Assembly: GCF_014203715.1 (NCBI RefSeq)
Contig: NZ_JACHJP010000008.1
Span: 248,001-312,000 of the forward strand
Direction: 5' to 3'
DNA from: Streptosporangium saharense
GTDB taxonomy: Bacteria; Actinomycetota; Actinomycetes; Streptosporangiales; Streptosporangiaceae
DNA: 64,000 nt
Positions 38,876 to 53,480 of this stretch are shown piece after piece; within the stretch, counting starts at the first letter, position 1; each line of letters begins with the position of its first letter. A program made the position numbers and the translations under genes. The notes beneath the pieces are model-generated. The model worked only from the letters and a program-made list of their open reading frames with translations, searched no databases and had not been told where the DNA came from.

Positions 38876-39087
38876 GATCCTCCGCGTGCGGAAACCCACT
38901 TCGCCGGTGACGTACGGCGGGCGCACCGAACCGGTTGTGACCAAGGGAAAGCCGCTGATTCACCGGGTCGCATACACGACATGCGGAGATCCAGCCTCGC
39001 GGAGAATTTCCAAAAATCTCCACGGTGTTTATAAGGCAAATAGAGCAGCAAACTCCGGGCACCCATTAGAACGCCGAGGGGACCTCC

Positions 39088-39546
39088 ATGTCCACCAGCA
39101 GAACGTTTCGGATTCTCCGCCGCACCATCCTGACCATCACGGCGGTGATGGTGCTGTTCGCCACGAATCTCACCGGCGCGTCCGCGACGCGGGCCCTGAC
39201 CGGCTGGGCCTGTTCGACGCCGCCGGGCTATGTCTACGACGAGGTCCAGTACAGCTACCAGTGCAGCCAGTCGAGCTGGACCTCGCCCGTCTACCACGTG
39301 CTCGCCCCCTACGACGGCCTCACGGCCTGCGTCAGCGCGACAGGCTGGACCTACGACCAGATCACCTACACCTCCGGCTGCAGCTTCCTGGGCACCACGG
39401 CCACGACCTTCCATCTCAGGCAGCCGGTCGACGGACTGTGGGCCTGCGTCGTGCCCAGCGGCTGGTCCTACACCGCGACCGCCACGACCTTCGACTGCAG
39501 CTACACCACCGGCGTTCCGTCGACCAAGTTCCAACTGGTCCACTGA
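39088..39546 (+). CDS. Secreted Cys-containing triple-repeat protein of unknown function
   Basis: 152 aa with GAGGGG before ATG 39088. Residues 1-33 form a signal peptide: basic start, hydrophobic stretch ILTITAVMVLFATNL, probable cut after ASA. The mature part has three repeats of about 40 residues, each built as GW(A/T)xDxxC...Y-x-C: WACSTPPGYVYDEVQYSYQC, then LTACVSATGWTYDQITYTSGC, then LWACVVPSGWSYTATATTFDC. Two Cys per repeat suggest one disulfide each. Rich in Tyr, Trp, Thr and Ser. I do not recognise the family. Isolated between the acetyltransferase and the sulfur operon control region. Confidence 0.85.
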   Translation: MSTSRTFRILRRTILTITAVMVLFATNLTGASATRALTGWACSTPPGYVYDEVQYSYQCSQSSWTSPVYHVLAPYDGLTACVSATGWTYDQITYTSGCSFLGTTATTFHLRQPVDGLWACVVPSGWSYTATATTFDCSYTTGVPSTKFQLVH

Positions 39547-39578
39547 CCCCGGGGCAGCACTGGCCGGGTGCGGCGTCG

Positions 39579-39597
39579 CTGACACGGTGGCCGTCAG
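39579..39597 (+). terminator. Possible terminator hairpin after the secreted repeat protein
   Basis: CTGACACGG, loop TGG, CCGTCAG with one bulged A, 33 nt after the stop. Weak stem without a U-tract. Confidence 0.3.
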
Positions 39598-39633
39598 GTG
39601 TGTGGGTATTTCATGTACAACTGGTAGGGAGTG

Positions 39634-39662
39634 TTGACTTTAGTTAGTTTGGCACCTAAATT
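39634..39662 (+). promoter_or_regulatory. Sigma-70-type promoter for leaderless leader peptide
   Basis: TTGACT at 39634-39639, 17-nt spacer, TAAATT at 39657-39662. Both boxes are close to the housekeeping consensus. Transcription would start about at ATG 39669, giving a leaderless mRNA that begins with the first leader peptide. Confidence 0.7.
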
Positions 39663-39668
39663 GGGGTT

Positions 39669-39743
39669 ATGCGCAAGGATGTTCCCCTTACCCGGCGTCA
39701 CCACGTGGACTTCGGCCACGTCAAAAGCGCACAGTGTCGCTGA
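39669..39743 (+). CDS. Leader peptide 1 with Cys codon before stop (AQCR)
   Basis: 24 codons: MRKDVPLTRRHHVDFGHV followed by KSAQCR and TGA. ATG lies 7 nt after the -10 box, so it is probably translated without a leader. It shares RR-H-(V/L)-x-(F/L)GH-x-x-x-AQCR-stop with the peptide at 39798. Short ORFs of this kind, basic and ending near a Cys codon, stand before sulfur-assimilation operons in actinobacteria. Cysteine-responsive attenuation by leaderless Cys-rich short ORFs is established in mycobacteria. Here ribosome stalling at the Cys codon is the inferred signal. Confidence 0.65.
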   Translation: MRKDVPLTRRHHVDFGHVKSAQCR

Positions 39744-39797
39744 TCGCACTCGTCTGATGCGGTGGCATCGCCGCCGGATTCCCCCCTATCGCCGCCC

Positions 39798-39854
39798 ATG
39801 AGCCGGCGCAGGCACCTGCACCTCGGCCACCTTCCGACCGCGCAGTGTCGCTGA
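39798..39854 (+). CDS. Leader peptide 2 with Cys codon before stop (AQCR)
   Basis: 18 codons, MSRRRHLHLGHLPTAQCR, then TGA. The last 12 bp before stop and the bases after it (gcgcagtgtcgctgatcgc) repeat those of leader 1, so one arose by duplication of the other. It begins 54 nt after leader 1 ends and about 255 nt before the flavin reductase start, suggesting two attenuation steps in series. Confidence 0.6.
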   Translation: MSRRRHLHLGHLPTAQCR

Positions 39855-40108
39855 TCGCGCCCATCCGATCTGGACAAGATCACTGCCGCTTTCCGGCCCC
39901 TGTCCCCGTCCCCGGGGGAGGCCGGAGGCTGCGATCGCCTTGGTTGAACCCATGTGCCGACGACGGTTCCGTCTTCGCGGAGCCGAGAAGCGGCATGAGC
40001 GCCCGAGGGGGCTCAGATGAACATCGAGATGTTGGCAGGCGACCCACGGACGGCTTCCCACAGACCGGACGCCGGACGGATGGACCTCGGCGGGAAGGGA
40101 GCCGGACG

Positions 40109-40615
40109 GTGACCGAAATCCTTCCCGGAAGGACCGTGGACGGCGAACGGTTCAGGAGGGCACTCGCGGCGCACGCCGCGGGAGTCGTGGTGATCACCGC
40201 TCGGGACGAGGGAGTCCCCGTCGGCCTGACCGCGACGTCGTTCTCGTCGGTCAGCCTGGAGCCACCGCTGGTCTCCTTCTACGTGGACCAGGGCTCGACC
40301 ACCTGGCCCCGGCTGCGCTCGGCCGGTCACTTCGCCGTCAACGTGCTCACCAGCGACCAGCACGAACTCGCGACCCGGTTCGCCCGTAAGAGCGTCGACC
40401 GCTTCGCCGCCCCGACCCGCTGGCATTCCGGCCCGTACGGCGCGCCGCTGCTGAGCGACGCGTCGGTGCACCTGGTCTGCCTGCCGTACACGACGCTGGA
40501 AGTGGGGGACCACGTGCTCGTCATCGGCTCGGTGGCCGAGGCGACCGTGCACGGCACGGGTCGGCCCCTGCTCTACCACCAGGGCCGTTTCGGCCAGTTC
40601 CTTCCTCACCCCTGA
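40109..40615 (+). CDS. FMN-type flavin reductase
   Basis: 168 aa from GTG 40109, AGGGAG 7 nt upstream. Flavin reductase-like split-barrel family: GLTATSFSSVSLEPPLVSFYVD flavin-binding strand region, HFAVNVLTSDQ and the C-terminal GRPLLYHQGRFGQF are typical. It supplies reduced FMN to two-component luciferase-like monooxygenases, four of which lie downstream on the same strand. First protein gene after the leader peptides. Confidence 0.92.
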   Translation: MTEILPGRTVDGERFRRALAAHAAGVVVITARDEGVPVGLTATSFSSVSLEPPLVSFYVDQGSTTWPRLRSAGHFAVNVLTSDQHELATRFARKSVDRFAAPTRWHSGPYGAPLLSDASVHLVCLPYTTLEVGDHVLVIGSVAEATVHGTGRPLLYHQGRFGQFLPHP

Positions 40616-40856
40616 TCCTTCTCTCCCCCTTCTCGCCGCCGTCGGCGGTATGTCTCTCCGGCACGGAGACCGGTCCTCGGACGCCCGGATTCCCGTGACA
40701 CCTCACCTCTCCACCTCTCTGTTCTTCGGTCCGTCATTCCCCTGTGCGCTCACCGTGCGTGACAGCTCTCGTACGCCTATGCCCGATGCCGAACATTCGC
40801 CGACCTCGGTGAAGCGCGGCTCCGTTCCCGAGCCACCGCTTCGAAAGGAAACCCCC

Positions 40857-41954
40857 GTGACAACGAACCGCCGACGCCACAGATGGCTCACCTCCGGCGT
40901 CGCCCTGCTGGCCGTCTCCACCATGCTCGCCGGATGCGGCAACGACTCCCCGGCGTCGGCAGACCCCGCCGGCACCGCCGTACCGGCCCTGGATCCCGCG
41001 AATCCGGTGACGGTCAAGGTGATCAACACCTCGACCGCCTTCAACGTCGCGCTCGCCAAGGACTACGGCTTCTTCAGGAAGTACGGCCTGGACATCCAGG
41101 AGAGCCAGCTCGCCAACGGCACCCAGGTGCTCGCGGCGCTGCAGGGCGGGAGCGGTGAGATCGGCTACGCCGACCTCTACGCCGGCATCAACGCCAAGGC
41201 GCAGGGCTTCGACATCAAGCTGGTCGCCAACAACAACACCAACGCCGAGGAGTTCCCGATCCTGGTCAAGGCGGACGGCCCGATCAAGTCGCCCGCCGAC
41301 CTCGCGGGCAGGAGCATCGCCCTGCCGCCGGTGCCGCAGCACACGGTCAACCTCCGCGGTTTCCTGAAGTCCAACGGGGTCGATCCGAACGCGGTCAAGT
41401 ACACGATCGTCCAGTCCCAGTCCGCCGCCCCCCAGGCGCTGGCGGGCGGGTCCGTCGACGCGTTCTTCGGCCAGTGGATCCAGGCGTACTCCAACGAGGG
41501 GCAGCCGGGCGCCTACGACTTCCGCGTCCTGGGCGACCCCGACTCGTCGAAGTGGTCCAACCTGAAGGCGACAACGGCGGCGTTCTGGGTCACCGGCGAC
41601 TGGCTGAAGGACCCGAAGAACCAGGCGGTCGCCTACGCCTTCGACAAGGCGCTGCACGCCTCCTACGTCTGGTTCAAGACGCTGAAGCCGGAACAACTCC
41701 AGCCGATCCTGCTCAGGTACCAGAAGACGGACCTGCAGAAGATCACCGGCAACGACCCCAAGAAGGTCCACAACCTCCTGACGAACACGCAGACCGGGCC
41801 GTTCGACTTCGACGCCACCCAGTCCTGGTACCAGCTCGGCCTTGAGTACGCCCCCGACAAGATCCAGAAGGGCGTCGACCTGCGCCAGCTCGTGTACGGC
41901 TCGGCACTGCAGCCCGCCCCCGAACTGATCCAGCCGCCGGAGAACCCGAGCTGA
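40857..41954 (+). CDS. ABC transporter substrate-binding lipoprotein (sulfonate/taurine type)
   Basis: 365 aa from GTG 40857 with AAGGAA upstream; the ATG at 40650 only extends it with non-signal sequence. Lipoprotein signal RRRHRWLTSGVALLAVSTML followed by AGC, lipid-modified Cys. The mature part is an NMT1/THI5/SsuA-like periplasmic fold: VTVKVINTSTAFNVALAKDYGFFRKYGLDI, SPADLAGRSIALPP, GSVDAFFGQW. It binds the imported ligand outside the membrane for the ATPase and permease that follow. The operon content suggests an aliphatic or aryl sulfonate. Confidence 0.9.
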   Translation: MTTNRRRHRWLTSGVALLAVSTMLAGCGNDSPASADPAGTAVPALDPANPVTVKVINTSTAFNVALAKDYGFFRKYGLDIQESQLANGTQVLAALQGGSGEIGYADLYAGINAKAQGFDIKLVANNNTNAEEFPILVKADGPIKSPADLAGRSIALPPVPQHTVNLRGFLKSNGVDPNAVKYTIVQSQSAAPQALAGGSVDAFFGQWIQAYSNEGQPGAYDFRVLGDPDSSKWSNLKATTAAFWVTGDWLKDPKNQAVAYAFDKALHASYVWFKTLKPEQLQPILLRYQKTDLQKITGNDPKKVHNLLTNTQTGPFDFDATQSWYQLGLEYAPDKIQKGVDLRQLVYGSALQPAPELIQPPENPS

Positions 41955-42017: not shown

Positions 42018-42854
42018 ATGACAAGCACAACCGAGGCCCAAGCGGCCGCCCTGACCGGCGGCGTCCATCAGGAGATCATCACCGTCGAAGGCGCGGGAAA
42101 GGACTACCTCGCCCTTGACGGGAACGTCGTACGCGGACTCTCGCCGGTGGACCTGACGATCGAACGGGGCGCATTCGTGTCACTCGTCGGCCGTTCCGGC
42201 TGCGGCAAGTCCACGTTCCTCCGCCTCGTCGCCGGACTGGAGAAGCCGACCTCCGGCACGATCCGCATCGGCACCGAGCGGGTGGACGGGCCGCCAGACA
42301 GCGCCCGCTACGTCTTCCAGAACTACAACGAGTCGCTGCTGCCGTGGCGCACGGTCGGCGACAACATCCGCTTCGGGCTGCGGCACGGGCACGGCGCCGC
42401 CCGCGCGTCCTCCAAGGCGCAGGAGAACGAGCTGATCCAGGAACACCTCGAAGAGGTCGGGCTCGGCGGAACCTTCAACCGCTACCCGGGCGAACTCTCC
42501 GGCGGCATGCAGCAGCGGGTCGCCATCGCCCGGGCCCTGGCCGCGCTTCCCGAGCTGCTGCTGCTCGACGAGCCGTTCAGCGCGGTCGACGCGCTCAGCC
42601 GGAGCACGCTGCAGGACCTCATCCTGCGGATCTGGCAGGAGCACGGCCTCACCGTCCTGTTCGTCACGCACGACATCGAGGAGGCCCTCTACCTGTCACA
42701 GCGCGTGATCGTGCTCCGTGAGAAGGGCGGCGGCGTCGAACGCGACGTCACCGTCGACATCCCGTACCCGCGCAGGCAGGTCGACTTCCGCGAGGACCCC
42801 CGCTATCTCCGCCTTCGCCGTGAGGTTCTCGGCCTCGTCCTCGGCACCGAGTGA
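42018..42854 (+). CDS. ABC transporter ATPase (SsuB/TauB-like)
   Basis: 278 aa. Walker A GRSGCGKST at residues about 58-66, Q-loop VFQNYNESLLPWRTV, signature LSGGMQQRVAIARAL, Walker B LLLLDEPFSAVD, switch His in VTHDIEEAL. The LPWRTV Q-loop context is characteristic of the nitrate/sulfonate/taurine import family. Works with the lipoprotein before it and the permease after it (10-nt gap). Confidence 0.95.
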   Translation: MTSTTEAQAAALTGGVHQEIITVEGAGKDYLALDGNVVRGLSPVDLTIERGAFVSLVGRSGCGKSTFLRLVAGLEKPTSGTIRIGTERVDGPPDSARYVFQNYNESLLPWRTVGDNIRFGLRHGHGAARASSKAQENELIQEHLEEVGLGGTFNRYPGELSGGMQQRVAIARALAALPELLLLDEPFSAVDALSRSTLQDLILRIWQEHGLTVLFVTHDIEEALYLSQRVIVLREKGGGVERDVTVDIPYPRRQVDFREDPRYLRLRREVLGLVLGTE

Positions 42855-42864
42855 AGGACCAGTC

Positions 42865-43728
42865 ATGCCCGACACCATCGTGACCGGAACAGAGGCGCGG
42901 GAAGCCGAAAGGAAACCCCCGGCGAGCGGGATCAGGCCCGTCGGCAGGGCGCGCAGGAACGCGCGCCGCTACTTCCGCAGCCGGGTCTCCGGCTGGACGC
43001 TGGTCGCCCTGGTCGTCGTCCTCTGGGAGCTCTACTCCAACGTCGACTACGACCCCACCATCTCCTCACCGAGCCGCATCGCCGAGACGTGGTGGGGGGA
43101 GGCGACCACGGGCGACCTGCTGAACCAGTTGACGATCACCCTGCGGACGATGGCCGAGGCCCTCGCGCTCGCCGTACCGCTCGGGGTCGGCATCGGCTTC
43201 CTGATGGGCCGCTCGCAGGTGATCTGGGGGCTGCTTGAGCCGCTCGTCGAGATCCTGCGGCTCACCCCGGCCACCGCGATCCTGCCGATCTACATCCTGT
43301 TCCTCGGTCTCGGCGACCAGATGAAGGTCGCGGTGTTCCTCACCGGGGGGATCTTTCCGATGATCATCAACTCCTACGCCGGTGCCCGGGGCGTGTCGAA
43401 GATCCTCTCCGAGACGGCGCAGACGTTCCGCCTGTCGTGGCTGCAGACGCAGCGGGAGATCGCCCTGCCGTTCGCGATGCCGTACATCCTCGTCGGCATG
43501 CGGCAGTCGCTGGGCATGTCGCTCGTGCTCGCGGTCGTCATCGGCATGCTCGCGGGCAACGACGGCATCGGCTACTACCTGATGTTCGCCCAGCAGAACT
43601 TCAACCTGAGGCAGTTGCTCGCCGGGGTGCTCACGGTCGCGTTCGTCGGCTACGTGTTCAACGCGGTCTTCCTGCTGCTCGAACGGCGCGTCACCCGGTG
43701 GCGGCGCAGCCAGACGGGTGCGGCGTGA
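42865..43728 (+). CDS. ABC transporter permease (SsuC/TauC-like)
   Basis: 287 aa from ATG 42865, with AAGGACC upstream; longer in-frame starts overlap the ATPase gene. Six hydrophobic segments, starting with WTLVALVVVLWELYSN. The EAL..G permease motif appears as ETAQTFRLSWLQTQREIALPFAMPYIL, which contacts the ATPase. Ends with GTGA overlap with the next monooxygenase, so all are one transcript. Confidence 0.94.
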   Translation: MPDTIVTGTEAREAERKPPASGIRPVGRARRNARRYFRSRVSGWTLVALVVVLWELYSNVDYDPTISSPSRIAETWWGEATTGDLLNQLTITLRTMAEALALAVPLGVGIGFLMGRSQVIWGLLEPLVEILRLTPATAILPIYILFLGLGDQMKVAVFLTGGIFPMIINSYAGARGVSKILSETAQTFRLSWLQTQREIALPFAMPYILVGMRQSLGMSLVLAVVIGMLAGNDGIGYYLMFAQQNFNLRQLLAGVLTVAFVGYVFNAVFLLLERRVTRWRRSQTGAA

Positions 43729-44798
43729 GCCCGGCCGCGGCGCGCGAGCCGCTCAAACTGGGGTTCTTCACTCATGTACGGTCCTCCTCCGGGCGGGCGG
43801 AGGCCCACGAGGAGCTCGTCCGCCTGTTCGTGGGCGCTGAGCGGCTCGGCTTCGACGTCGGGTTCGTGGCCCAGCACCTGCTGGCCGACGGCGAGGAGGG
43901 CTCGACGCCGTCACCGCTGATCTCCCTCGCCCCGGTCGCCGTGTCGACCGAGCGGATCGGGCTCGGCGTCTCAGTGGTGACGCTGCCGGTCACGGACCCC
44001 GTCCAGCTCGCCGAGGACGCGCTCACCCTGGACGCGATCTCGCGGGGGCGCCTGGAACTCGGTCTCGGAACCGGCAACGCCAACATCGACAGGTACCCGG
44101 CCTTCGGACACGACGGGGCGCGGGCGACGGAGCTGTTCGACGAGAACCTCGCCGTGCTGCAGGCCGCCCTGGCGGGCCACCCGCTGCGCGGCACCGGCCT
44201 GACCCTGCCGGTGGACGGCACACCGTTGCTGCACCGCCTCTGGCGCACCCCGGGCAGCGTCGCCTCGGCCCGCCGCGCCGCACTCACCGGTGTCGGCGCC
44301 CTGTACGGCACGGCGACCCTCGACGCCAGGACCCGGCAGCGGCCGATCATCGACGCCTACCTGTCCCAGTGGGCGGAGACCGGCCCGAGCCAGGCCCCGG
44401 CCGAGGTGGCGGGCAGTCTGCGGCCACGGCTCGGCGCGATCCGGATGATCTATCCCTCCGACTCCTACGAGACGGCGCTCGCGGAGCTGGCCCCGTTCGT
44501 GCGGGCAGGCCGTACCCGGCTCGCGAAGGCCAACGGGACCGACCCCGGTGAGCTGGACGACGACGAGGTCCTGGCGTCGATGAACGTCAAGACCGGCTCG
44601 CCGCGACAGACGGCGCGGGCCCTCCGGGACGACGTCGCGCTGCTGCCCGAGGCGGACTACCTCATCGCCGTCACCAACGTCATCGAGGACGCGGAGGCCG
44701 GGTCCGGCGGGAAACGCGCCGTGGACGCCGCGCTGCGCGGCCTGGAGCGGATCGCGGCCGAGGTGGCGCCCGAGCTCGGATGGACGCCGAAGAAATGA
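43725..44798 (+). CDS. Luciferase-like FMN-dependent monooxygenase (first of four)
   Basis: 357 aa from GTG 43725, overlapping the permease stop by 4 bp. LLM-class TIM barrel: LKLGFFTHV at the N-terminus, LGLGVSVVTLPVTDPVQLAEDALTLDAISRGRLELGLGTGN flavin-binding region. Such enzymes use reduced FMN and O2, often to cleave C-S or C-N bonds. Its place directly after the permease suggests action on the imported compound. Substrate not readable. Confidence 0.9.
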   Translation: MSPAAAREPLKLGFFTHVRSSSGRAEAHEELVRLFVGAERLGFDVGFVAQHLLADGEEGSTPSPLISLAPVAVSTERIGLGVSVVTLPVTDPVQLAEDALTLDAISRGRLELGLGTGNANIDRYPAFGHDGARATELFDENLAVLQAALAGHPLRGTGLTLPVDGTPLLHRLWRTPGSVASARRAALTGVGALYGTATLDARTRQRPIIDAYLSQWAETGPSQAPAEVAGSLRPRLGAIRMIYPSDSYETALAELAPFVRAGRTRLAKANGTDPGELDDDEVLASMNVKTGSPRQTARALRDDVALLPEADYLIAVTNVIEDAEAGSGGKRAVDAALRGLERIAAEVAPELGWTPKK

Positions 44799-46285
44799 GC
44801 CAGGACAGGACGGACGACAGGGCGCGCTGGCGGGCCCTGTACGTCGCGTCGATCCTCTCGGGATTCCTCCTGCTCGGCATCGGCGACGCCAACGTGGCGC
44901 TGCCGGCGATCGCCGACGCGCTGCACATCGGCCCGACCAGCCTCCAGCTTGTCTCGGCGGGCTATGTCGTGACCTTCGGCCTCACCCTCGTGCCCTTCGG
45001 GCGCCTGGGGGACCAGGGCCACCGGCGCAGGTTGATCTTCATCGGCCTTTCGGTCTACGTCGTCTCCAGCCTCGTCTGCGGCCTCGCCGCGGACTGGCGG
45101 ACGCTCATCGCGGGACGCGTCCTGCTCGGCGTCTCGGCCGGGATCCTCATGCCGCAGACGATCGGCGTGATCCAGCAGCTTTTCAGCGGTGCCGAGCGGG
45201 GCAGGGCCTTCGCCGACTACGGCGTGATGACCGCCATCGCGACCGCGCTGGGACCGAGCGTCGGCGGCCTGCTCGTGACCCTGGGCGGGCAGGCCCAGGG
45301 GTGGCGGTGGATCTTCCTGATGAACGTCCCCATCGGTGTCGCGCTGTTCGCCGCGGGCCTCCGCTACCTGCCCAGGACCCAGCCGGTCGCCGCGACCGCC
45401 AACCGCAGCCTCGACCCGTTCGGCGCCGTGCTTCTCGGCGTCACCGTGCTCCTCGTGCTGTATCCACTCGTGCTGACCACCGGCCTGCCGGGCGACAGCG
45501 CGGCGCGGTGGTACACGCTCCTCCCCGCCGCCGTCTTCGGCGTGCTGTTCTGGCGGTGGGAACGCCGCTACGCGCGCCGGGGCTCGCTTCCGCTGCTGGA
45601 CGGGGACCTGCTGCGTACCCGGTCGTACCGGATCGCGATGCTCGTCGCCGCGTCGTGGCTGGCCACCGGGCCCGCGGTGAGCCTGGTGCTGATGCTCTAC
45701 CTTCAGTTGGCGCTCGGACTCTCCCCGGTCCTCGCCGCCCTGGTCCTGCTGCCGTCCGCCGCGGCCTCCGCCTTCGGCGCGCGCTGGGCGGCGCGGCGCG
45801 TGCTGCTCAGGGGCCGGGTCATCACGCTGACCGGGCTGTTCATGTCCGCCGGAGGCATCCTCGTCTCCGCCCTGGCCGCGAACCTCCTGCCGCCCCACCC
45901 CGCGATAGCCGTGATCACGGTGGCGCAGGTCCTCAACGGAGTGGGCAACGGCATGGTGATCTCACCGAACCACGTGCTGCTGCTGATCGACGTGCCGAAG
46001 GAGAAGGGCGGCCTCGCCGCCTCGATCGGCCATCTGACACAGCGCATCGGCAACTCGCTCGGCGTGGCGGCCACCTCGGCGGCCTTCTACGCCGTGATCT
46101 ACGGCCAGGCGGGGGGCCTGACGAACGCGCGGCGGTCCACCTACGACAGCGCCCTCACCGCCGGGGTGGTCACCGCCGGGATCTTCTTCGTGCTCGCCGT
46201 GTGGGCCTCGGTGGTGGACCTCCTCCGGATGCGGCGAGCACGCGCGGTCCCGCCATCGGCCGCACTGGCCACCCCCCTGAAGTGA
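44795..46285 (+). CDS. MFS transporter, DHA2-like (14 TM)
   Basis: 496 aa from ATG 44795 (ATGA overlap with the preceding gene); ATG 44780 is an alternative five codons earlier. Motif A-like GRLGDQGHRRRLIFIGL after TM2, RVLLGVSAGILMPQTIGVIQQLF in TM4/5, and about 14 hydrophobic segments, fitting the drug:H+ antiporter-2 family. It may export a toxic by-product or the desulfurised remainder of the imported substrate. An antibiotic exporter role is possible but the operon argues against it. Confidence 0.9.
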   Translation: MSQDRTDDRARWRALYVASILSGFLLLGIGDANVALPAIADALHIGPTSLQLVSAGYVVTFGLTLVPFGRLGDQGHRRRLIFIGLSVYVVSSLVCGLAADWRTLIAGRVLLGVSAGILMPQTIGVIQQLFSGAERGRAFADYGVMTAIATALGPSVGGLLVTLGGQAQGWRWIFLMNVPIGVALFAAGLRYLPRTQPVAATANRSLDPFGAVLLGVTVLLVLYPLVLTTGLPGDSAARWYTLLPAAVFGVLFWRWERRYARRGSLPLLDGDLLRTRSYRIAMLVAASWLATGPAVSLVLMLYLQLALGLSPVLAALVLLPSAAASAFGARWAARRVLLRGRVITLTGLFMSAGGILVSALAANLLPPHPAIAVITVAQVLNGVGNGMVISPNHVLLLIDVPKEKGGLAASIGHLTQRIGNSLGVAATSAAFYAVIYGQAGGLTNARRSTYDSALTAGVVTAGIFFVLAVWASVVDLLRMRRARAVPPSAALATPLK

Positions 46286-46319
46286 TCGACGAAGCAGGAA
46301 ACGAGCAAGGAGTGCAAGC

Positions 46320-47717
46320 GTGAGTGAGAAGCGTCAGGTGAAGCTGGGGCACTCGATCTGGCCGGAAGGGCGCCACGGCACGGGCTGGCGGCGCCGTCGC
46401 CACCACAAGGTGCTTGAGGGCGACCCGGACTTCTACCGGGCGACGGCGCAGACCGCCGAACGAGGGCTGTTCGACTACTTCTTCCTCGGCAACGGCGAGG
46501 CTGCCCGGCTGCCCGGCAAACCGGGACCCGGCAACCGGGAGTGGTCGGCGGACACGGCGGCCAACGGCGTGGTGAACATCGCCGACGGCGAGCACTACTG
46601 GACCCCCAACGGCCTGTTCAAGCTCGACAGCTTCACCGCCAACGCCTACGTCGCGGCGCTGACGTCGCACATCGGGCTGGTCTCGACGTTCAACACGACC
46701 TACCAGCATCCGTTCAACGTGGCCCGGCAGACCGCCACCCTCGACCACCTCAGCCGGGGCCGCGCCGCGATCAACATCGTGACCGGGCGCAGCGACGACG
46801 CGGCGCGTAACTACGGGTTCGAGGAACAGCCCGACGGCGACGCCCGGTGGGACCGCGCCGAGGAGTTCGTCCAGATCCTCTGGTCGCTGTGGGACGGCTG
46901 GCAGGACGGCTGGTACGTCGGAGACCGGGAGGGCGGGCGGTTCCTCGACCTCGACAAGATCCACCCGACCGCCTTCCGCGGCAAGCACTTCAGCGTCGAG
47001 GGACCGCTCAACATCCCGCCGTCCCCGCAGCGCCGTCCGCCGCTGATCGTGGCCGGCACGTCCCAGCGGTCGTTCGAGTTCGGCGCCAAGTATGCCGACG
47101 TCCGCTTCATCCCCTTCGCCGACAAGCAGGCCGAGTACTACCGGAAGCAGAAGGAACTGGCCGCCCAGTACCACCGCGACCCGGACGACTACCACCTGCT
47201 GCCCGGCATCACCTTCTACGTGGACGAGACCTCGACCGCCGCCCACGCCAGGTTCCGCGAGATCCAGGACCTGTCCGTCGTGCCGTTCGACGCGGACGCG
47301 CTCGGGCGGGTGCTCGGCGTGGACCTCGGCGGGGCCGGGCCGTACGACAAGGTGAAGGACGTCGTGGACGTCGCCGCGCACCCCGGGTCCGCCTGGCTGG
47401 TGAAGGACGCGTTCCTCGGCTTCGGGGACGAGGACATCACGCTCGCCGACCTCGACCACTTCGTCGCCAACGGCCCCGCCAACCAGGTGCCGGTCGTCGG
47501 TTCCGGGCAGGAGGTGGCCGACTGGATCGAGGAGAACTTCGAGGACCGCAAGCTCGACGGCGTCGTGGTCTTCCCGCCCTACCAGCCGGGCTCGCTGGAC
47601 GCGTTCGTCGACCTGGTGGTGCCTGAGCTGCAACGACGCGGTCTTTTCCGTACGGCCTACACCGGCACGACGTTCCGGGAGCACCTCGGCCCGTCTGCCA
47701 CCGCGAAGACGGCCTGA
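46320..47717 (+). CDS. NtaA/DszA-type FMN-dependent monooxygenase (second of four)
   Basis: 465 aa from GTG 46320. Features of the NtaA/SnaA/DszA branch: FYRATAQTAERGLFDYFFLGNG, GLVSTFNTTYQHPFNVARQTATLDHLSRGRAAINIVTG, then NYGFEE, DRAEEFVQIL, AFRGKHFSVEGPLNIPPSPQRRPPLIVAG. Members oxidise compounds such as nitrilotriacetate and dibenzothiophene sulfone with FMNH2 from a separate reductase, matching the reductase at the head of this operon. Confidence 0.92.
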   Translation: MSEKRQVKLGHSIWPEGRHGTGWRRRRHHKVLEGDPDFYRATAQTAERGLFDYFFLGNGEAARLPGKPGPGNREWSADTAANGVVNIADGEHYWTPNGLFKLDSFTANAYVAALTSHIGLVSTFNTTYQHPFNVARQTATLDHLSRGRAAINIVTGRSDDAARNYGFEEQPDGDARWDRAEEFVQILWSLWDGWQDGWYVGDREGGRFLDLDKIHPTAFRGKHFSVEGPLNIPPSPQRRPPLIVAGTSQRSFEFGAKYADVRFIPFADKQAEYYRKQKELAAQYHRDPDDYHLLPGITFYVDETSTAAHARFREIQDLSVVPFDADALGRVLGVDLGGAGPYDKVKDVVDVAAHPGSAWLVKDAFLGFGDEDITLADLDHFVANGPANQVPVVGSGQEVADWIEENFEDRKLDGVVVFPPYQPGSLDAFVDLVVPELQRRGLFRTAYTGTTFREHLGPSATAKTA

Positions 47718-47726
47718 GGTCCCCCG

Positions 47727-48734
47727 ATGGAGATCGGGATCTTCAGCACCGGCAACCTCGCCGGAGACCCGTCGGTCGGGGCGACCACCACCGAACGCCT
47801 GCGCGGTCTGGTGAGGCTCGCGCAGCGCGCGGAACAGGCTGGTTTCGATGTGTTCGCGGTAGGCGAGGCGCACAAACCACCGGCGACCGTCAGCTCGCCC
47901 GCCGTACTGCTCGCCCATATCGCCGCGGTCACCTCGACCGTTCAGCTCTCGACGGCGGTCTCACTGATAACCGTCAACGACCCGGTCAGGCTCGCCGAGG
48001 ACTACGCGACCGTGCAGCACCTGGCCGACGGGCGGCTCGGGCTGATGTTCGGCCGGGGTGTCGATCCCGGCATCTACCGCTGGTACGGCCTCGACCCCGC
48101 AGAGACCGTCGAGATCGCCTCGGAGCGCTACGACCTGTTCCGGCGGCTGTGGAGTGAGGAGAGCGTTGACTGGACGGGGAGGTACCGGCCGCCGCTTGAG
48201 GGGTTCACCGTCGTTCCGCGCCCGCTGACCGACCGGCTGCCGCTGGTGTGGCAGACCTCGATCAGGACCAGGGCCCTCGTCGAACAGACAGCCCGCTACG
48301 GCGACGGCTTCTTCGCCAACTACGTGTTCTTCTCCGCGGAACAGGCGGCGCCGCACGTGCGGTACTTCCGTGAGCGCTACGCGGCGTACGGCCACGGCAC
48401 CGCGGAGTCCGCGCCGGTCGGCTCGGGTGCGAAGGTGCACGTCAGGCTCCGCTCCCAGGACGCGCTGCGCGAGTTCGAGGCGCAGGGCTACGACCTGTCC
48501 GCGTGGCCGTACGACACCCTCGACGAGGCGATCCGGCACAGCGCGCTGACCGTGGGCAGCCCGGCCCAGGTCCTGGACAAGATCGCCCATTTCCAGGAGC
48601 AGTACGGCGGCTACCGGCGGCAGCTCTTCTCCATCGACCTGCCCGGCGGCACCGTCGACCAGATGCTCGAACAGGTCGACCTCCTCGGGGAGCACGTCCT
48701 GCCGTCCCTGCGCGCGACTTACGCGCACGCCTGA
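47727..48734 (+). CDS. Luciferase-like monooxygenase (third of four)
   Basis: 335 aa. EIGIFSTGNLAGDPSVG start, FDVFAVGEAHKPP, STAVSLITVNDPVRLAEDYATVQHLADGRLGLMFGRG: a canonical LLM barrel of the luciferase alpha/beta branch. Begins 9 nt after the previous gene, without room for its own promoter. Substrate unknown; likely another step in the same breakdown route. Confidence 0.9.
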   Translation: MEIGIFSTGNLAGDPSVGATTTERLRGLVRLAQRAEQAGFDVFAVGEAHKPPATVSSPAVLLAHIAAVTSTVQLSTAVSLITVNDPVRLAEDYATVQHLADGRLGLMFGRGVDPGIYRWYGLDPAETVEIASERYDLFRRLWSEESVDWTGRYRPPLEGFTVVPRPLTDRLPLVWQTSIRTRALVEQTARYGDGFFANYVFFSAEQAAPHVRYFRERYAAYGHGTAESAPVGSGAKVHVRLRSQDALREFEAQGYDLSAWPYDTLDEAIRHSALTVGSPAQVLDKIAHFQEQYGGYRRQLFSIDLPGGTVDQMLEQVDLLGEHVLPSLRATYAHA

Positions 48735-48764
48735 GTCGCAACCCCCTGAAAGGAAGCAGAAACG

Positions 48765-50228
48765 ATGAGCAAGCAAGATGACGTCGACCGGGCGGCACAG
48801 GAGTCGCTGCGCCTGCTCGGCGCCGACCCGGCCAACTGGGTCCTCCCGACCCCGGGCGTGGACCACGACGTCGCGGTCATCGGCGGCGGGCAGAGCGGCG
48901 TGACCATCGCGTTCGCGCTGCGCCGCGCCGGTGTCTCCAACGTCACCGTCCTTGAGGCCGCCGACCGGGCGACCACCGGCGTGTGGCGGACACGGGCGCG
49001 GATGAACACCCTGCGCACACCGAAGACGCGCTCAGGTCCCGAGCTTGGCAACCCGGCGCTCGGCTTCCAGGCCTGGTACGAGGGACTGTACGGCCAGGCC
49101 GCCTACCAGGCCATCGGACGCATCGCCCGTACCGACTGGGCCGACTACCTCGACTGGTTCCAGCGTCAGGTCGGCGTGGAGGTCCGCTACGGAACCAGGG
49201 TCGTGGACGTCGAGCCGGTCGAGGGCCTGCTGCGGCTGCACCTGGACACGGACGGACGGCGGCACACCGAGGTGGTGCGCAAGCTCGTCCTCGCGAACGG
49301 TGTCGAGGGAACCGGCGGCCCGAGCATCCCCGCGATCTTCGAAGCGCTCCCGGAACACCTGTACGCCCACACCGGCGACGAGATCGACTTCGCCGCGCTG
49401 AACGGTAAGAAGGTGGGCGTCCTGGGCGCCGCCACCTCCGCGCTCGACGCCGCCGCCGTCGCGCTGGAGTCCGGAGCCGACGAGGTGCACGTCTTCTCCT
49501 ACCGCGCCGAGCTGGTCATCCAGCCCAGCGGCGGGAACGTGCCCAACCCCGGCGCGCAGGAGAACTTCCACCTGCAGCCAGACGCGGTGCGCTGGAAGAG
49601 CCGGTGGGCCCAGGCGAGCAAGGGTTCGACCAGCCCGCTGGACACCGTGCTGCGCGCGGTCGCCTTCCCCAACCTGCGGCTCCACTTCAACGCGCCCTGG
49701 ACGTCGTTGCGCGCGGAGGACGGCAGGGCCGTCGTCGAGGCGGCCGACGGCACCCACACCTACGACTTCGTGATCGCGGGAACCGGCTACCGGTACGACC
49801 CGCGCACCCGCCCCGAACTGCGGCGAATCGCCGAGGACGTGGCGCTGTGGCGGGACGTGTACGACCCCCCGGCCGACCTCCGCTCCGAGGTCCTCGGCGC
49901 CTTCCCCTACCTGGGGAAGGGCTACGAACTGACCGAGCGGGTGCCCGGCTCGGCCCCGTGGCTGCGCGACATCCACCTGTTCAACGCCGCCGCGTCGCAC
50001 AGCTTCGGCCGTCCGGTGGGGGACATCCCGAGCCTGCGGACCGGCGTGCCGCGCCTGGTCGAGGCGATCAGTCATGACCTTTTCTTCGCCGACCAGGGGC
50101 GGCCGAAGCCGGTCACCGCTGCCGCCGGGGAGTCCTTCGTCGAGCACTACGCCCACGCCGTGTGGCGTCCCGACGCCGAGGGTGTCGGGGACGTCGAGGG
50201 TGTCGGGGTGGAGGCGACAGTCGGCTGA
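48765..50228 (+). CDS. FAD/NAD(P)-dependent monooxygenase
   Basis: 487 aa with AAAGGAAG before ATG. The first Rossmann fold VAVIGGGQSGVTIAFALRRAG binds FAD; the second, GVLGAATSALDAAAVAL, binds NAD(P)H. GTGYRYDPRTRPEL resembles the ATG-containing segment of flavin monooxygenases. Unlike the luciferase-like neighbours it reduces its own flavin. It may oxidise sulfur or nitrogen, or hydroxylate the carbon skeleton. The last 15 residues are a small Gly/Val/Glu repeat without similarity to the family. Confidence 0.88.
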   Translation: MSKQDDVDRAAQESLRLLGADPANWVLPTPGVDHDVAVIGGGQSGVTIAFALRRAGVSNVTVLEAADRATTGVWRTRARMNTLRTPKTRSGPELGNPALGFQAWYEGLYGQAAYQAIGRIARTDWADYLDWFQRQVGVEVRYGTRVVDVEPVEGLLRLHLDTDGRRHTEVVRKLVLANGVEGTGGPSIPAIFEALPEHLYAHTGDEIDFAALNGKKVGVLGAATSALDAAAVALESGADEVHVFSYRAELVIQPSGGNVPNPGAQENFHLQPDAVRWKSRWAQASKGSTSPLDTVLRAVAFPNLRLHFNAPWTSLRAEDGRAVVEAADGTHTYDFVIAGTGYRYDPRTRPELRRIAEDVALWRDVYDPPADLRSEVLGAFPYLGKGYELTERVPGSAPWLRDIHLFNAAASHSFGRPVGDIPSLRTGVPRLVEAISHDLFFADQGRPKPVTAAAGESFVEHYAHAVWRPDAEGVGDVEGVGVEATVG

Positions 50229-50347
50229 GCCGACCGGGACCGGACGCCCACGACGCCACGCGGCCGGGCCGTACCGGACCTCGGACACTCGCCCGCTTCC
50301 GCGCGCCCGAACCACCATGACAATCCACCGACCGAGGCGGTACGACC

Positions 50348-51664
50348 ATGACGGAACCCACCCGTGAACTGCATCTGAACCTGTTCGGCAACTGGTACGG
50401 CAACCACCGGGCCGCGTGGCGGCACCCCGGCGTCGATCCGCACCAGCTCTGGGACATCGACTTCAACATCCGTACCGCCAGAACTGCGGAGCGCGGGCTG
50501 TTCGACGCGGTGTTCTTCGCCGACGGACCGAATCTCGGCCCCGTGCAGCCGACCAGCGGACAGACCAAGCCCGAGCCGATCACGCTGCTGTCGGTGCTCG
50601 GCGCGGTCACCACCCACCTCGGGCTGGCCTCGACGGTGTCGACGACCTACTCCGAGCCGTACAACACGGCGCGGCAGATCGCCTCCCTCGACCTGCTCAC
50701 CGGTGGCCGCGCCGGGTGGAACGCCGTGACCGGATCGAGTGCCGCGGCCGCGTCGAACTTCGGCCCGGCCTCCCACCCCGAGCACGCCCTGCGCTACGAG
50801 CGGTCTGAGGAGTTCCTCCAGATCGTCAAGGCGCTCTGGGAGAGCTGGGAACCGGGCGCGGTGATCGCCGACCAGGGCACCGGGGTGTTCCTGGACCCGG
50901 GCAAGGTGCACCGCGTCCCCTTCCGGGGCAGGCACTTCCAGATCGACGCGGTGTTCAACGTGCCCCGCTCCCCGCAGGGGCGGCCGCTCATCTTCCACGC
51001 GGGCGACTCCGACTTCGGCCGGTCGCAGGGCGCCCGTCACGCGGACGCCATCTTCACAGCCCAGCCGACGATCGAGGCGGCGCGGGAGTTCTACCGCGAC
51101 TTCAAGCGCCGGGTCGCCGAGGCGGGGCGGAACCCCGCGTACGCCCACGTCATGCCCGGCTACCTCGCCGTGGTCGGCAGCACGGAAGCGGAGGCGAAGG
51201 CCGCGTTCGACGAGCTGAACCGGTTGATCGACATCGAGGGAGCGATCGAGGAGGTCGCGCGCGGCGACGGGCTTGACGTGTCGGGTGTCGACCTCGACAG
51301 ACCGATTCCGGACTCGCTGTGGGAGCACTCGATCGCGACCAGCACCTTCAGGAGCCGGGTCGAGGCGCTGCGCACCAAGGCGGCCGAGGCAAGGCTCACC
51401 GCCCGCCAGGTGATCGAGTGGGACATCGCGGCGCACGGCCACTACGTGTTCGTGGGGACGCCGGAGCAGGTCGCCGACGACATCGAACTGTGGTTCACCA
51501 CCGGTGCCGCCGACGGATTCAACTACAAGGCGCCGACGTTCCCCGACGGTCTGGAGATCTTCGTCGACCACGTCGTGCCGCTGCTGCAGAAGAAAGGCGT
51601 CTACCGCAGGGAGTACACCGCGACGACGCTACGTGGCCACTACGGCCTGCCGTACCCGAACTGA
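50348..51664 (+). CDS. NtaA/DszA-type FMN-dependent monooxygenase (fourth of four)
   Basis: 438 aa. LHLNLFGNWYGNHRAAWRHP start, TARTAERGLFDAVFFADGPNL, GLASTVSTTYSEPYNTARQIASLDLLTGGRAGWNAVTGSS, and FRGRHFQIDAVFNVPRSPQGRPLIFHAGDS, all typical of the NtaA/SnaA/DszA branch. The 119-bp gap before it has no clear promoter. It is a paralogue of the gene at 46320, not a recent copy. Confidence 0.92.
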   Translation: MTEPTRELHLNLFGNWYGNHRAAWRHPGVDPHQLWDIDFNIRTARTAERGLFDAVFFADGPNLGPVQPTSGQTKPEPITLLSVLGAVTTHLGLASTVSTTYSEPYNTARQIASLDLLTGGRAGWNAVTGSSAAAASNFGPASHPEHALRYERSEEFLQIVKALWESWEPGAVIADQGTGVFLDPGKVHRVPFRGRHFQIDAVFNVPRSPQGRPLIFHAGDSDFGRSQGARHADAIFTAQPTIEAAREFYRDFKRRVAEAGRNPAYAHVMPGYLAVVGSTEAEAKAAFDELNRLIDIEGAIEEVARGDGLDVSGVDLDRPIPDSLWEHSIATSTFRSRVEALRTKAAEARLTARQVIEWDIAAHGHYVFVGTPEQVADDIELWFTTGAADGFNYKAPTFPDGLEIFVDHVVPLLQKKGVYRREYTATTLRGHYGLPYPN

Positions 51665-51692
51665 GTGACCCCACCGAGATCGGAACCATGAC

Positions 51693-52646
51693 ATGACGAC
51701 CCTTGCCGATGCCGGTCTGATCGACATCCACACCCACTACCGGCCGGTCGGCTGGCAGGTGCCGGGCGGCGAACGCCCCCGCCCTGTCGCCGGATTCGCC
51801 AAGGAGAAGCTGGAGAACCTTCCGGGGCTGGCCCAGGAGAGCATCGACGGCGGTGTCGGCCTGCGTGCCCTCAGCGCACCGGTCGAGCAGCTTTTCGGTC
51901 TGGACGGCCCGGTCGAGACGGCTGCGGTCAACACGGTGAACGAGTACCTCGCCGACGCCGTCCGGGAACGGCCCGAGGTGTTCCTCGGCCTCGCCACGGT
52001 AGACGCCTTCTCCGGTGAGGCCGGGGCTGAGCAGACCCGCTACGCGATCGAGGAACTCGGCCTGCACGGCATCGTGCTCGACTCCTCGCGCGACGACCGG
52101 TTCCTCAGCTCGCCCGAGGCGTTCCCGACCCTGGAACTGGCCGCCCGGCTCGGCGTTCCCGTCTTCGTGCACCCGGTGGCGGCGCCACAGGCGGAGGCAC
52201 TGGTGAAGGCCGCGGGACGTCCCGGCAACTCGATCGGCCGCGGCCTGCAGAACGGCGCGAGTTTCCTGTCGGCCCTTCATGCCGACCTGCCGACCCGGCT
52301 GCCCGACCTGCACCTGGTGTTCACGGCGCTGGGCAGCGGCGCGCTGTACTTCGTCACCGAGGAGCTGGCGGCCTACCGGCAGAGATCCGCGGACGGCGCC
52401 CCCGCGAACATCTACTTCGACACGACACGGCTCAACCCGTGGCTGATCCGCTACTACGCCGACGTCATCGGCGTCGAGAGGATCATCGTCGGCAGCGACT
52501 GGCCGGGCCGCCCGATCTCCGCCGAACTGGTGCGCGACGCCCTGGACACCGCCGGGTTCGACCCGGCCGCTCAGGAGCGGATCCGCGTCGGCAACGCCCG
52601 TCGGCTCTTCGAACTGCGCGCCGCGAAGAACGCGGAAGCCGCCTGA
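51693..52646 (+). CDS. Amidohydrolase family metal hydrolase
   Basis: 317 aa. Metal-binding IDIHTHY at the N-terminus, FVHPVAAP in the middle and IIVGSDWPGRP near the C-terminus match the amidohydrolase-2 (ACMSD-like) barrel. Likely hydrolyses or decarboxylates a product of the monooxygenases. 28 nt after the previous gene, same strand. Confidence 0.9.
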   Translation: MTTLADAGLIDIHTHYRPVGWQVPGGERPRPVAGFAKEKLENLPGLAQESIDGGVGLRALSAPVEQLFGLDGPVETAAVNTVNEYLADAVRERPEVFLGLATVDAFSGEAGAEQTRYAIEELGLHGIVLDSSRDDRFLSSPEAFPTLELAARLGVPVFVHPVAAPQAEALVKAAGRPGNSIGRGLQNGASFLSALHADLPTRLPDLHLVFTALGSGALYFVTEELAAYRQRSADGAPANIYFDTTRLNPWLIRYYADVIGVERIIVGSDWPGRPISAELVRDALDTAGFDPAAQERIRVGNARRLFELRAAKNAEAA

Positions 52647-52682
52647 ATCCCCATCGTCGAGAGAAAGCACGAGAAAACCACC

Positions 52683-53480
52683 ATGACCGCGACGTCCCCG
52701 GTGATCACCGCCGAGAAACTGCGCCACAAACTGGCAGACGGCGAGAAGGTCGTCCTGCTGGAGATCCGCCGTGAGCTGGACCCCGACCAGGAGGAGCCCG
52801 GGCGGCTGCCCGGTGCGCACGTCGTCGAGTTGGTGTCCCAGCTCGCCGGTCGGCGCCACGAGGGGTCGGGCAACAACCCGTTGCCGGGCGAGGAACAGAT
52901 CCAGGAGTCGGTACGCCGCTGGGGCATCGACGAGGACTCGACAGTCGTCGTGTACACCCGCGAGAACCCGGCCATCGCCACCCGCGCCTGGTGGACGCTG
53001 AGGTGGGCGGGGGTCCCGGACGTGCGCTACCTCGACGGCGGCGTCGCCGCCTGGCAGGCCGCCGACGGCCCGCTCAGCACCGACCCGCCCAAGGACGGCG
53101 ACGGCGCCTTCGTCGTCAGGGTGGGGTCCCTTCCCACCCTCGACGCGGAGCAGGCCGCCGCGCTCGCCCGCTCCGGCGTGCTGCTCGACGCCCGCCCGGA
53201 GGCCGCCTACGCCGACGGGCACATCCCCGGCGCGCTGAGCCTGCCGAGCGCGGTCAACCTCGGCGCGGACGGGCTGCTGAGGAGTGACGACGACCTGCGC
53301 GCCCGGTATGTCTCCCTCGGCGCCGACGGCGAGCGGCCCCTCGGCGTCTACTGCGGCGGTGGCGTCGGCGCCACGTTCGACATCCTCGCCCTCACCAAAC
53401 TCGGCATCCCCGCCGCCCTGTATCCCGGCTCCTGGTCGGCCTGGACCTCCGACCCGGCCCGCCCCGTCGAACAGGGCTGA
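52683..53480 (+). CDS. Two-domain sulfurtransferase (rhodanese)
   Basis: 265 aa, two rhodanese domains. The N-terminal domain has VVVYTRENPAIATRAWWTLRWAGV, with no Cys in the active loop, so it is structural. The C-terminal domain has LLDARPEAAYADGHIPGA and active loop YCGGGVGAT with the catalytic Cys. It transfers sulfane sulfur and fits handling of thiosulfate, sulfite or sulfide released upstream. Last gene of the operon. Confidence 0.93.
   Translation: MTATSPVITAEKLRHKLADGEKVVLLEIRRELDPDQEEPGRLPGAHVVELVSQLAGRRHEGSGNNPLPGEEQIQESVRRWGIDEDSTVVVYTRENPAIATRAWWTLRWAGVPDVRYLDGGVAAWQAADGPLSTDPPKDGDGAFVVRVGSLPTLDAEQAAALARSGVLLDARPEAAYADGHIPGALSLPSAVNLGADGLLRSDDDLRARYVSLGADGERPLGVYCGGGVGATFDILALTKLGIPAALYPGSWSAWTSDPARPVEQG

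Follow-up and report, generated by a model that had tools for sequence, protein, structure and literature searches.

Three NCBIfam families describe actinobacterial leader peptides: NF042934 (cis_reg_atten, putative leader peptide), NF042936 (Ms4527A) and NF042933 (Ms5788A). According to the available text of the relevant articles, leaderless short ORFs with a run of Cys codons (poly-Cys ORFs) head cysteine and sulfur operons in mycobacteria (Shell et al. 2015, PMC4633059; PMC9031893, PMC9094748, PMC13236596), and translation attenuation has been reported for those of M. smegmatis (PMC4633059; PMC9031893, PMC9094748, PMC13236596, citing Canestrari et al. 2020). Cys leader peptides before cys genes were also described in Mycobacterium, Propionibacterium acnes and Bifidobacterium longum by Seliverstov et al. 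2005 (PMC1262725); in the available text of that article these contain runs of Cys codons and, like the locus considered here, are without terminators, and no mechanism is found there. In Rhodobacterales the uORFC-8-2 motif before cysS (PMC8632094) likewise has Cys codons in an upstream ORF as the presumed sensor. As far as the accessible part of that source goes, it differs in having an intrinsic terminator and in being dominated by UGC, whereas UGU is invariant in the leaders described below.

The window analysed here (the whole stretch of 64,000 nucleotides) contains two short ORFs in front of a series of genes presumably concerned with sulfur acquisition. A preliminary description had noted that these ORFs share a motif and matching DNA, and that the first is leaderless behind a near-consensus promoter. 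Both ORFs exist as described, within a tandem repeat, and the promoter is placed as proposed. The features of this region are:

39608-39639, + strand: conserved promoter-proximal element ATTTCATGTA...GGTAGGGAGTG, running into the -35 box; candidate activator site
39634-39639, + strand: -35 box TTGACT, with a 17-nt spacer to the -10 box
39657-39662, + strand: -10 box TAAATT, ending 6 nt before ATG 39669; leaderless start predicted from the sequence
39669-39743, + strand: leader peptide 1 (ORF 1), MRKDVPLTRRHHVDFGHVKSAQCR and stop, 24 codons; match to its own profile with E 2.2e-15
39735-39737, + strand: Cys codon TGT of leader 1, candidate regulatory codon, TGT also in relatives
39684-39797, + strand: imperfect tandem duplication, first unit (local alignment)
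39795-39911, + strand: imperfect tandem duplication, second unit (local alignment)
39798-39854, + strand: leader-like ORF 2, MSRRRHLHLGHLPTAQCR and stop; a duplicate with neither -10 box nor Shine-Dalgarno
39846-39848, + strand: Cys codon TGT of ORF 2

The head-to-tail repeat is approximately 114 nt long. Its local alignment score of 81, against a maximum of 42 in 2000 shuffles, means that the likeness of ORF 1 and ORF 2 is not due to chance and reaches beyond the ORFs. TTGACT-17-TAAATT is the sole promoter-like site in 39500-40200 (1 found, 0.1 expected), and a search of 39000-40700 for riboswitches and T-boxes of Rfam 15 gave no match (best score 19.4 bits, gathering score 60). The suggested likeness to mycobacterial cysteine attenuators is supported: a leaderless start, predicted for leader 1 though not for ORF 2, is common to both. 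The mycobacterial ORFs carry a Cys run; the leaders considered here have one or two Cys, and each window ORF has a single Cys codon with no run in either. Both of these codons are TGT; the 13 longer window ORFs that were counted contain 16 TGC and 0 TGT.

A DNA search with 39600-40115 matched 35 of 198 related genomes, and the same peptide could be read at these loci. The pattern HVD....AQC, which allows both TGT and TGC, was scanned over the DNA of 84,980 species genomes. This yielded 105 stretches and 106 matches, of which three without a leader layout (L108, L123 and L143) were dropped. The 103 kept matches, which bear out the expected conservation of the peptide, form what we call the AQC branch, with the consensus MSQGxxLTRRxHVDFGHVASAQCR and stop. 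Among the matches listed (80 of the 105 stretches), they come mainly from Nonomuraea, Planobispora, Planotetraspora, Sphaerisporangium, Streptosporangium and their kin; a family look-up places Nonomuraea in the Streptosporangiaceae and Actinocorallia in the Thermomonosporaceae. Particular tests used those with enough upstream sequence for the promoter test (102 leaders), those with 240 nt downstream (99 loci), or those with 24 nt upstream after removal of identical ones (97 distinct leaders).

The layout of leader 1 is general in this branch. TANNNT lies 6-7 nt before the in-frame start in 100 of 102 related leaders, with TTGAC upstream in 99 and GTAGG[AGT]A in 100. A profile match at E<=0.001 was obtained in 13 of the 16 genomes of the genus, and the source genome has five. 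ORF 1 is among the best scores of the AQC family against its own profile; ORF 2 has no match at this threshold and is not among the five.

The AQC branch and the three NCBIfam families have a common layout, [RK]R.[HA]VD[LF]..V..[AC].C near the stop and before sulfur genes. The branch differs in having G/C-H instead of the usual x-R, and AQC instead of A[LIV]C or CLC. The alignment of leader 1 with NF042936 covers positions 1-20 of 21 and scores 15.8 bits (cut-off 45; E 0.0077), and NF042934 does not match it, while other members of the branch align to positions 3-19 of the 19 of NF042934. The curated cut-off of these families was reached by 0 of 10 AQC-branch peptides, and ORF 2 matched none of the three. 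A terminal TGT, our own criterion of membership, is present in the AQC branch and in both window copies. NF042934 is found above its cut-off six times in the source genome and in 96 of 148 genomes of the class, compared with 0 of 14 control genomes; five such leaders elsewhere in the source genome precede genes for a luciferase-like monooxygenase, a sulfatase, a sulfite/nitrite reductase, an NMT1-type binding protein and TauD. Judged by layout and alignment, the AQC leaders thus belong with the cysteine leader peptides already known from actinobacteria, as a divergent branch which the current family cut-offs miss and which can now be described. The preliminary description had considered the peptides unlike the poly-Cys type. 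This holds for GH and Q, which are special to the branch, but the body HVDxxxV.SAxC is common to canonical Cys leaders. Neither the AQC branch nor the UGU rule given below was described in the open-access literature searched; Canestrari et al. 2020 could contain part of it.

At the 99 loci, the 16-nt segment that follows the Cys codon was compared with the 240 nt beyond it, with 20 shuffles. The best complementary run scored at least 19 in 66 loci, compared with a mean of 18.5 (maximum 27) after shuffling the leader segment and 16.5 (maximum 19) after shuffling the downstream segment. More specifically, in 54 of 99 loci such a run includes a start codon preceded by a Shine-Dalgarno (shuffled mean 1.85, maximum 4). 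The typical partners are UGAUCACG, which begins with the leader stop codon, and CGUGAUCA, which holds a GUG start. If the stop region pairs with the next start, stalling of the ribosome at UGU would expose this start, which amounts to translation attenuation. This complementarity of the stop region itself sets the branch apart from the mycobacterial poly-Cys ORFs and points to a compact switch, leader stop region against next start codon.

In 61 such loci the start GTGATC heads 25 short and 36 long ORFs (for example, substrate-binding proteins and flavin reductases). Since it heads such unlike ORFs, the motif is not kept for the protein. In 23 of the 25 short ORFs the stop overlaps the start of the gene that follows (ATGA or GTGA), which points to a relay start under the control of the leader. 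Short GTGATC relay ORFs of 8-46 codons lie just 3' of the leader in L052, L053, L078, L080, L088, L099 and others.

Folding calculations point the same way, although they are not independent because the loci were chosen for complementarity. Where the start is less than 90 nt away, a stall at the Cys codon raises its accessibility in 25 of 25 loci (median 0.00 to 0.47). Far starts are opened in 21 of 35, with a gain of at most 0.2 in the other 14. With the ribosome placed 12 codons earlier, opening occurs in 2 of 25 near and 6 of 35 far loci. Covariation between stop region and start gave no useful signal (at the adjoining pair 43 of 59 match, 39.6 expected), and the 8-bp core varies too little to be able to show it. 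In canonical leaders the start-pairing test is weak (9 of 64 against 3.6 expected, at most 7). In several CLC-type leaders (L158, L170, L171, L201, L202 and L212) the stop region reads ..UCCUGAC.., complementary to the Shine-Dalgarno GUCAGGAG.

Leader 1 is probably a leaderless cysteine leader peptide acting by translation attenuation. RNA polymerase would begin at ATG 39669 or right beside it, and the 24 codons would be translated. With ample Cys-tRNA the ribosome would pass the single UGU and leave at UGA, and the freed stop region (UGAUCRC...) would silence the next ORF by pairing with its translation-initiation region. With scarce Cys-tRNA it would wait with UGU in the A site and cover the stop region, so that the next start stays open; translation would then be handed by overlapping stop and start codons to the flavin reductase, sulfonate-uptake and monooxygenase genes. 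The leaderless layout, peptide conservation, UGU invariance and complementarity are drawn from comparison with relatives; from these we infer stalling, cysteine as the signal and the direction of the switch. In ermC-type translation attenuators with an arrest peptide, a stalled ribosome similarly opens a sequestered start, but the signal there is an antibiotic.

The codon at which the ribosome would wait is itself constant. It is TGT in 97 of 97 distinct AQC leaders, compared with a TGT share of 0.20 in the long ORFs of the same loci, and the base that follows is C or T in all 102 AQC leaders with a base there. The same is true of 69 canonical NF042934 loci (L155-L183, placed by motif with one per locus, and the next 40 among the matches listed): the terminal Cys codon is TGT in 69 of 69, whereas elsewhere in these matches Cys is encoded by TGC in 73 of 81 codons and by TGT in 8 of 81 (Fisher p 4e-34, uncorrected for kinship). 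In bacteria UGU is read through wobble, by a single tRNA-Cys whose anticodon is GCA. The simplest reading is therefore that terminal UGU has been selected as a weakly read codon, and its invariance argues that the codon is read as well as the peptide. This gives a testable sensing codon for a large set of actinobacterial sulfur operons.

The preliminary description also suggested that the nascent peptide itself may matter. In this alternative the body LTRRxHVDFGHVxSAQC would arrest or slow the ribosome from within the exit tunnel, acting together with the Cys-tRNA signal, which would explain why one UGU codon suffices. It is a plausible proposal, although we lean against it. Leu at -5 is kept in 97 of 97 leaders with three different codons and Arg at -3 in 85 of 97 with five, and across the wider family this body is found again ahead of genes of different kinds. 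The core positions were fixed by the search pattern and their constancy is thus partly by design, but LTRR lies outside the pattern and has a pN/pS of 0.30, against 0.93 in the codons before and 0.97 in the codon after. Synonymous change is also reduced there (pS 0.31, against 0.49-0.53 in neighbouring codons), so that some of the constraint falls on the nucleotides, and, as the invariant UGU shows, the peptide is not all that matters. The peptide body of AQC leaders thus appears to be under amino-acid selection to some degree, and to that degree the suggestion stands. Separately, the Ser before Ala (core codon 8) is AGC or AGT in 97 of 97 AQC leaders, even though two thirds of the Ser codons in the same loci are TCN; this restriction looks like a constraint at the nucleotide level.

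Returning to attenuation at UGU, a single rule for actinobacterial Cys leaders can be put forward as a speculation: the sensing codon would be one terminal UGU followed by a pyrimidine, the weakest Cys codon because it is read by wobble, the conserved nascent VDxxxVxSAxC would tune the ribosome to make this one codon sufficient and, in the AQC branch, the stop codon would form part of an 8-nt anti-start for the next GUG. If this were true, changing UGU to UGC alone should blunt the cysteine response across the operon set.

In the window, the parts that correspond to this switch are altered. These and the genes that follow, together with a second AQC-type leader of the source genome, are:

39741-39748, + strand: leader 1 stop region TGATCGCA, homologue of TGATCACG, which pairs with the next start in relatives
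39924-39928, + strand: GGAGG
39930-39937, + strand: TGCGATCG / UGCGAUCG, best complement of both leader stop regions (scores 18.5 and 17.0), between GGAGG and TTG 39940
39940-40020, + strand: possible relay ORF B, TTG start; stop overlaps ATG 40017 (ATGA)
40017-40112, + strand: possible relay ORF C, MNIEML...GKGAGR and stop; stop overlaps GTG 40109 (GTGA)
40109-40615, + strand: flavin reductase (PF01613, 134.8 bits, cut-off 27)
40650-41954, + strand: sulfonate/taurine-type ABC substrate-binding protein, start uncertain (PF09084, above cut-off)
42018-43728, + strand: ABC ATPase and permease, sulfonate/taurine type
43737-53480, + strand: remaining presumed operon (luciferase-like monooxygenases, MFS transporter, flavin monooxygenase, amidohydrolase, rhodanese)
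G000:C7:339995-340057, minus strand: L237, second AQC-type leader of the source genome, MGLYLTRCAHVDFCRVFSAQCP

ORF 2 appears from these comparisons to be a recent duplicate whose function is doubtful. Between RR and the stop it differs from ORF 1 in nine codons, seven nonsynonymous and two synonymous, so that the 'strictly kept' body of the preliminary description applies to the relatives of ORF 1 but not between the two copies. The tandem cysteine sensor proposed there is not supported: this duplicate, as noted, has no -10 box, Shine-Dalgarno or profile match, and no second leader was found behind any of the 99 related leaders by a test which does detect ORF 2 in the window. The count was likewise 0 behind 15 AQC motifs of same-genus loci, and BLAST pieces over the ORF 2 stretch from unrelated genomes (L034, L035, L036 and L038), read in six frames, contained no leader peptide.

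The window stop regions read UGAUCGCA and UGAUCGCG, and no GTGATC follows within 400 nt. There is weak support for a shift of the target to 39930-39937, upstream of the TTG start, which the stop region of ORF 2 may share with that of leader 1. The duplex energies are -15.6 and -17.0 (median of intact relatives -14.2), but the pairing is not significant (shuffle fractions 0.114 and 0.094). Sister loci L094, L129 and L145 similarly show no significant pairing at the starts tested (0.14-0.71); L010 gives 0.08 and 0.04. In the global fold GGAGG at 39924 is closed in all four ribosome states, and the minimum free energy fold of the window with a ribosome at either Cys codon leaves the nearest Shine-Dalgarno unchanged; the leader-2 pairing does form when the fold begins at the second Cys codon. 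Altered, non-significant pairing and an unresponsive global fold suggest that the window switch is either rewired or decaying. L237, which keeps the standard TGATCACG...GTGATC pair, would be the natural intact reference. By eye, the GAGR-stop ending of ORF C recurs in L094, L129 and L145. A conserved ORF B peptide was considered and rejected, as its MCRRR-like start does not stay in frame in L129, L145 and L010.

If the window copy were decaying, its promoter and leader 1 would persist while duplication and loss of the GTGATC start had broken the switch, leaving control to the promoter. The missing GTGATC, the non-significant pairing and the excess of nonsynonymous differences in ORF 2 would all fit; leader 1 nevertheless keeps its strong profile match and both copies retain TGT and the stop region, and we consider decay rather doubtful. 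Rho-dependent transcription attenuation, in which Rho would bind the uncovered untranslated stretch unless a stalled or coupled ribosome protects it, has been proposed for mycobacterial cys leaders in the available text of Seliverstov et al. 2005 (PMC1262725). It would suit the absence of any intrinsic terminator in 39500-40200 but would leave the start-codon complementarity of the 54 relatives unexplained, and is unlikely. That the TGATCA-containing repeats are instead a DNA- or RNA-binding site for a protein is very improbable: TGATCA is palindromic and the core hardly varies, but one copy always starts at the stop of the leader and its partner, 50-231 nt away, at the start codon of ORFs that are unlike one another, whereas an operator pair would hold its spacing.

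Under translation attenuation, the genes controlled by leader 1 would be those from the flavin reductase onwards. The preliminary description placed a Cys-codon leader before a sulfur operon, and such a leader before sulfur-acquisition genes is supported. Within the window, two luciferase-like monooxygenases pass the NtaA/DmoA cut-off; transporter and rhodanese models were matched under theirs, the substrate-binding protein reaches 71.3 bits with SsuA_fam (cut-off 163.5), and the MFS transporter, flavin monooxygenase and amidohydrolase were named by reading. On this basis we infer, with good grounds, that the genes after leader 1 form a sulfur operon. A Cys-rich, secreted-looking small ORF of 152 aa (39088-39546) lies just 5' of the promoter, with no visible relation to the operon.

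The conserved element at 39608-39639, ATTTCATGTAAAACCAGTAGGAAATRTTGACTT, which extends into the -35 box, is also found upstream of the L050-L154 leaders. It looks like the site of a sulfur-responsive activator. GGTAGGA also precedes the canonical leaders L002, L004 and L005 of the same genome.
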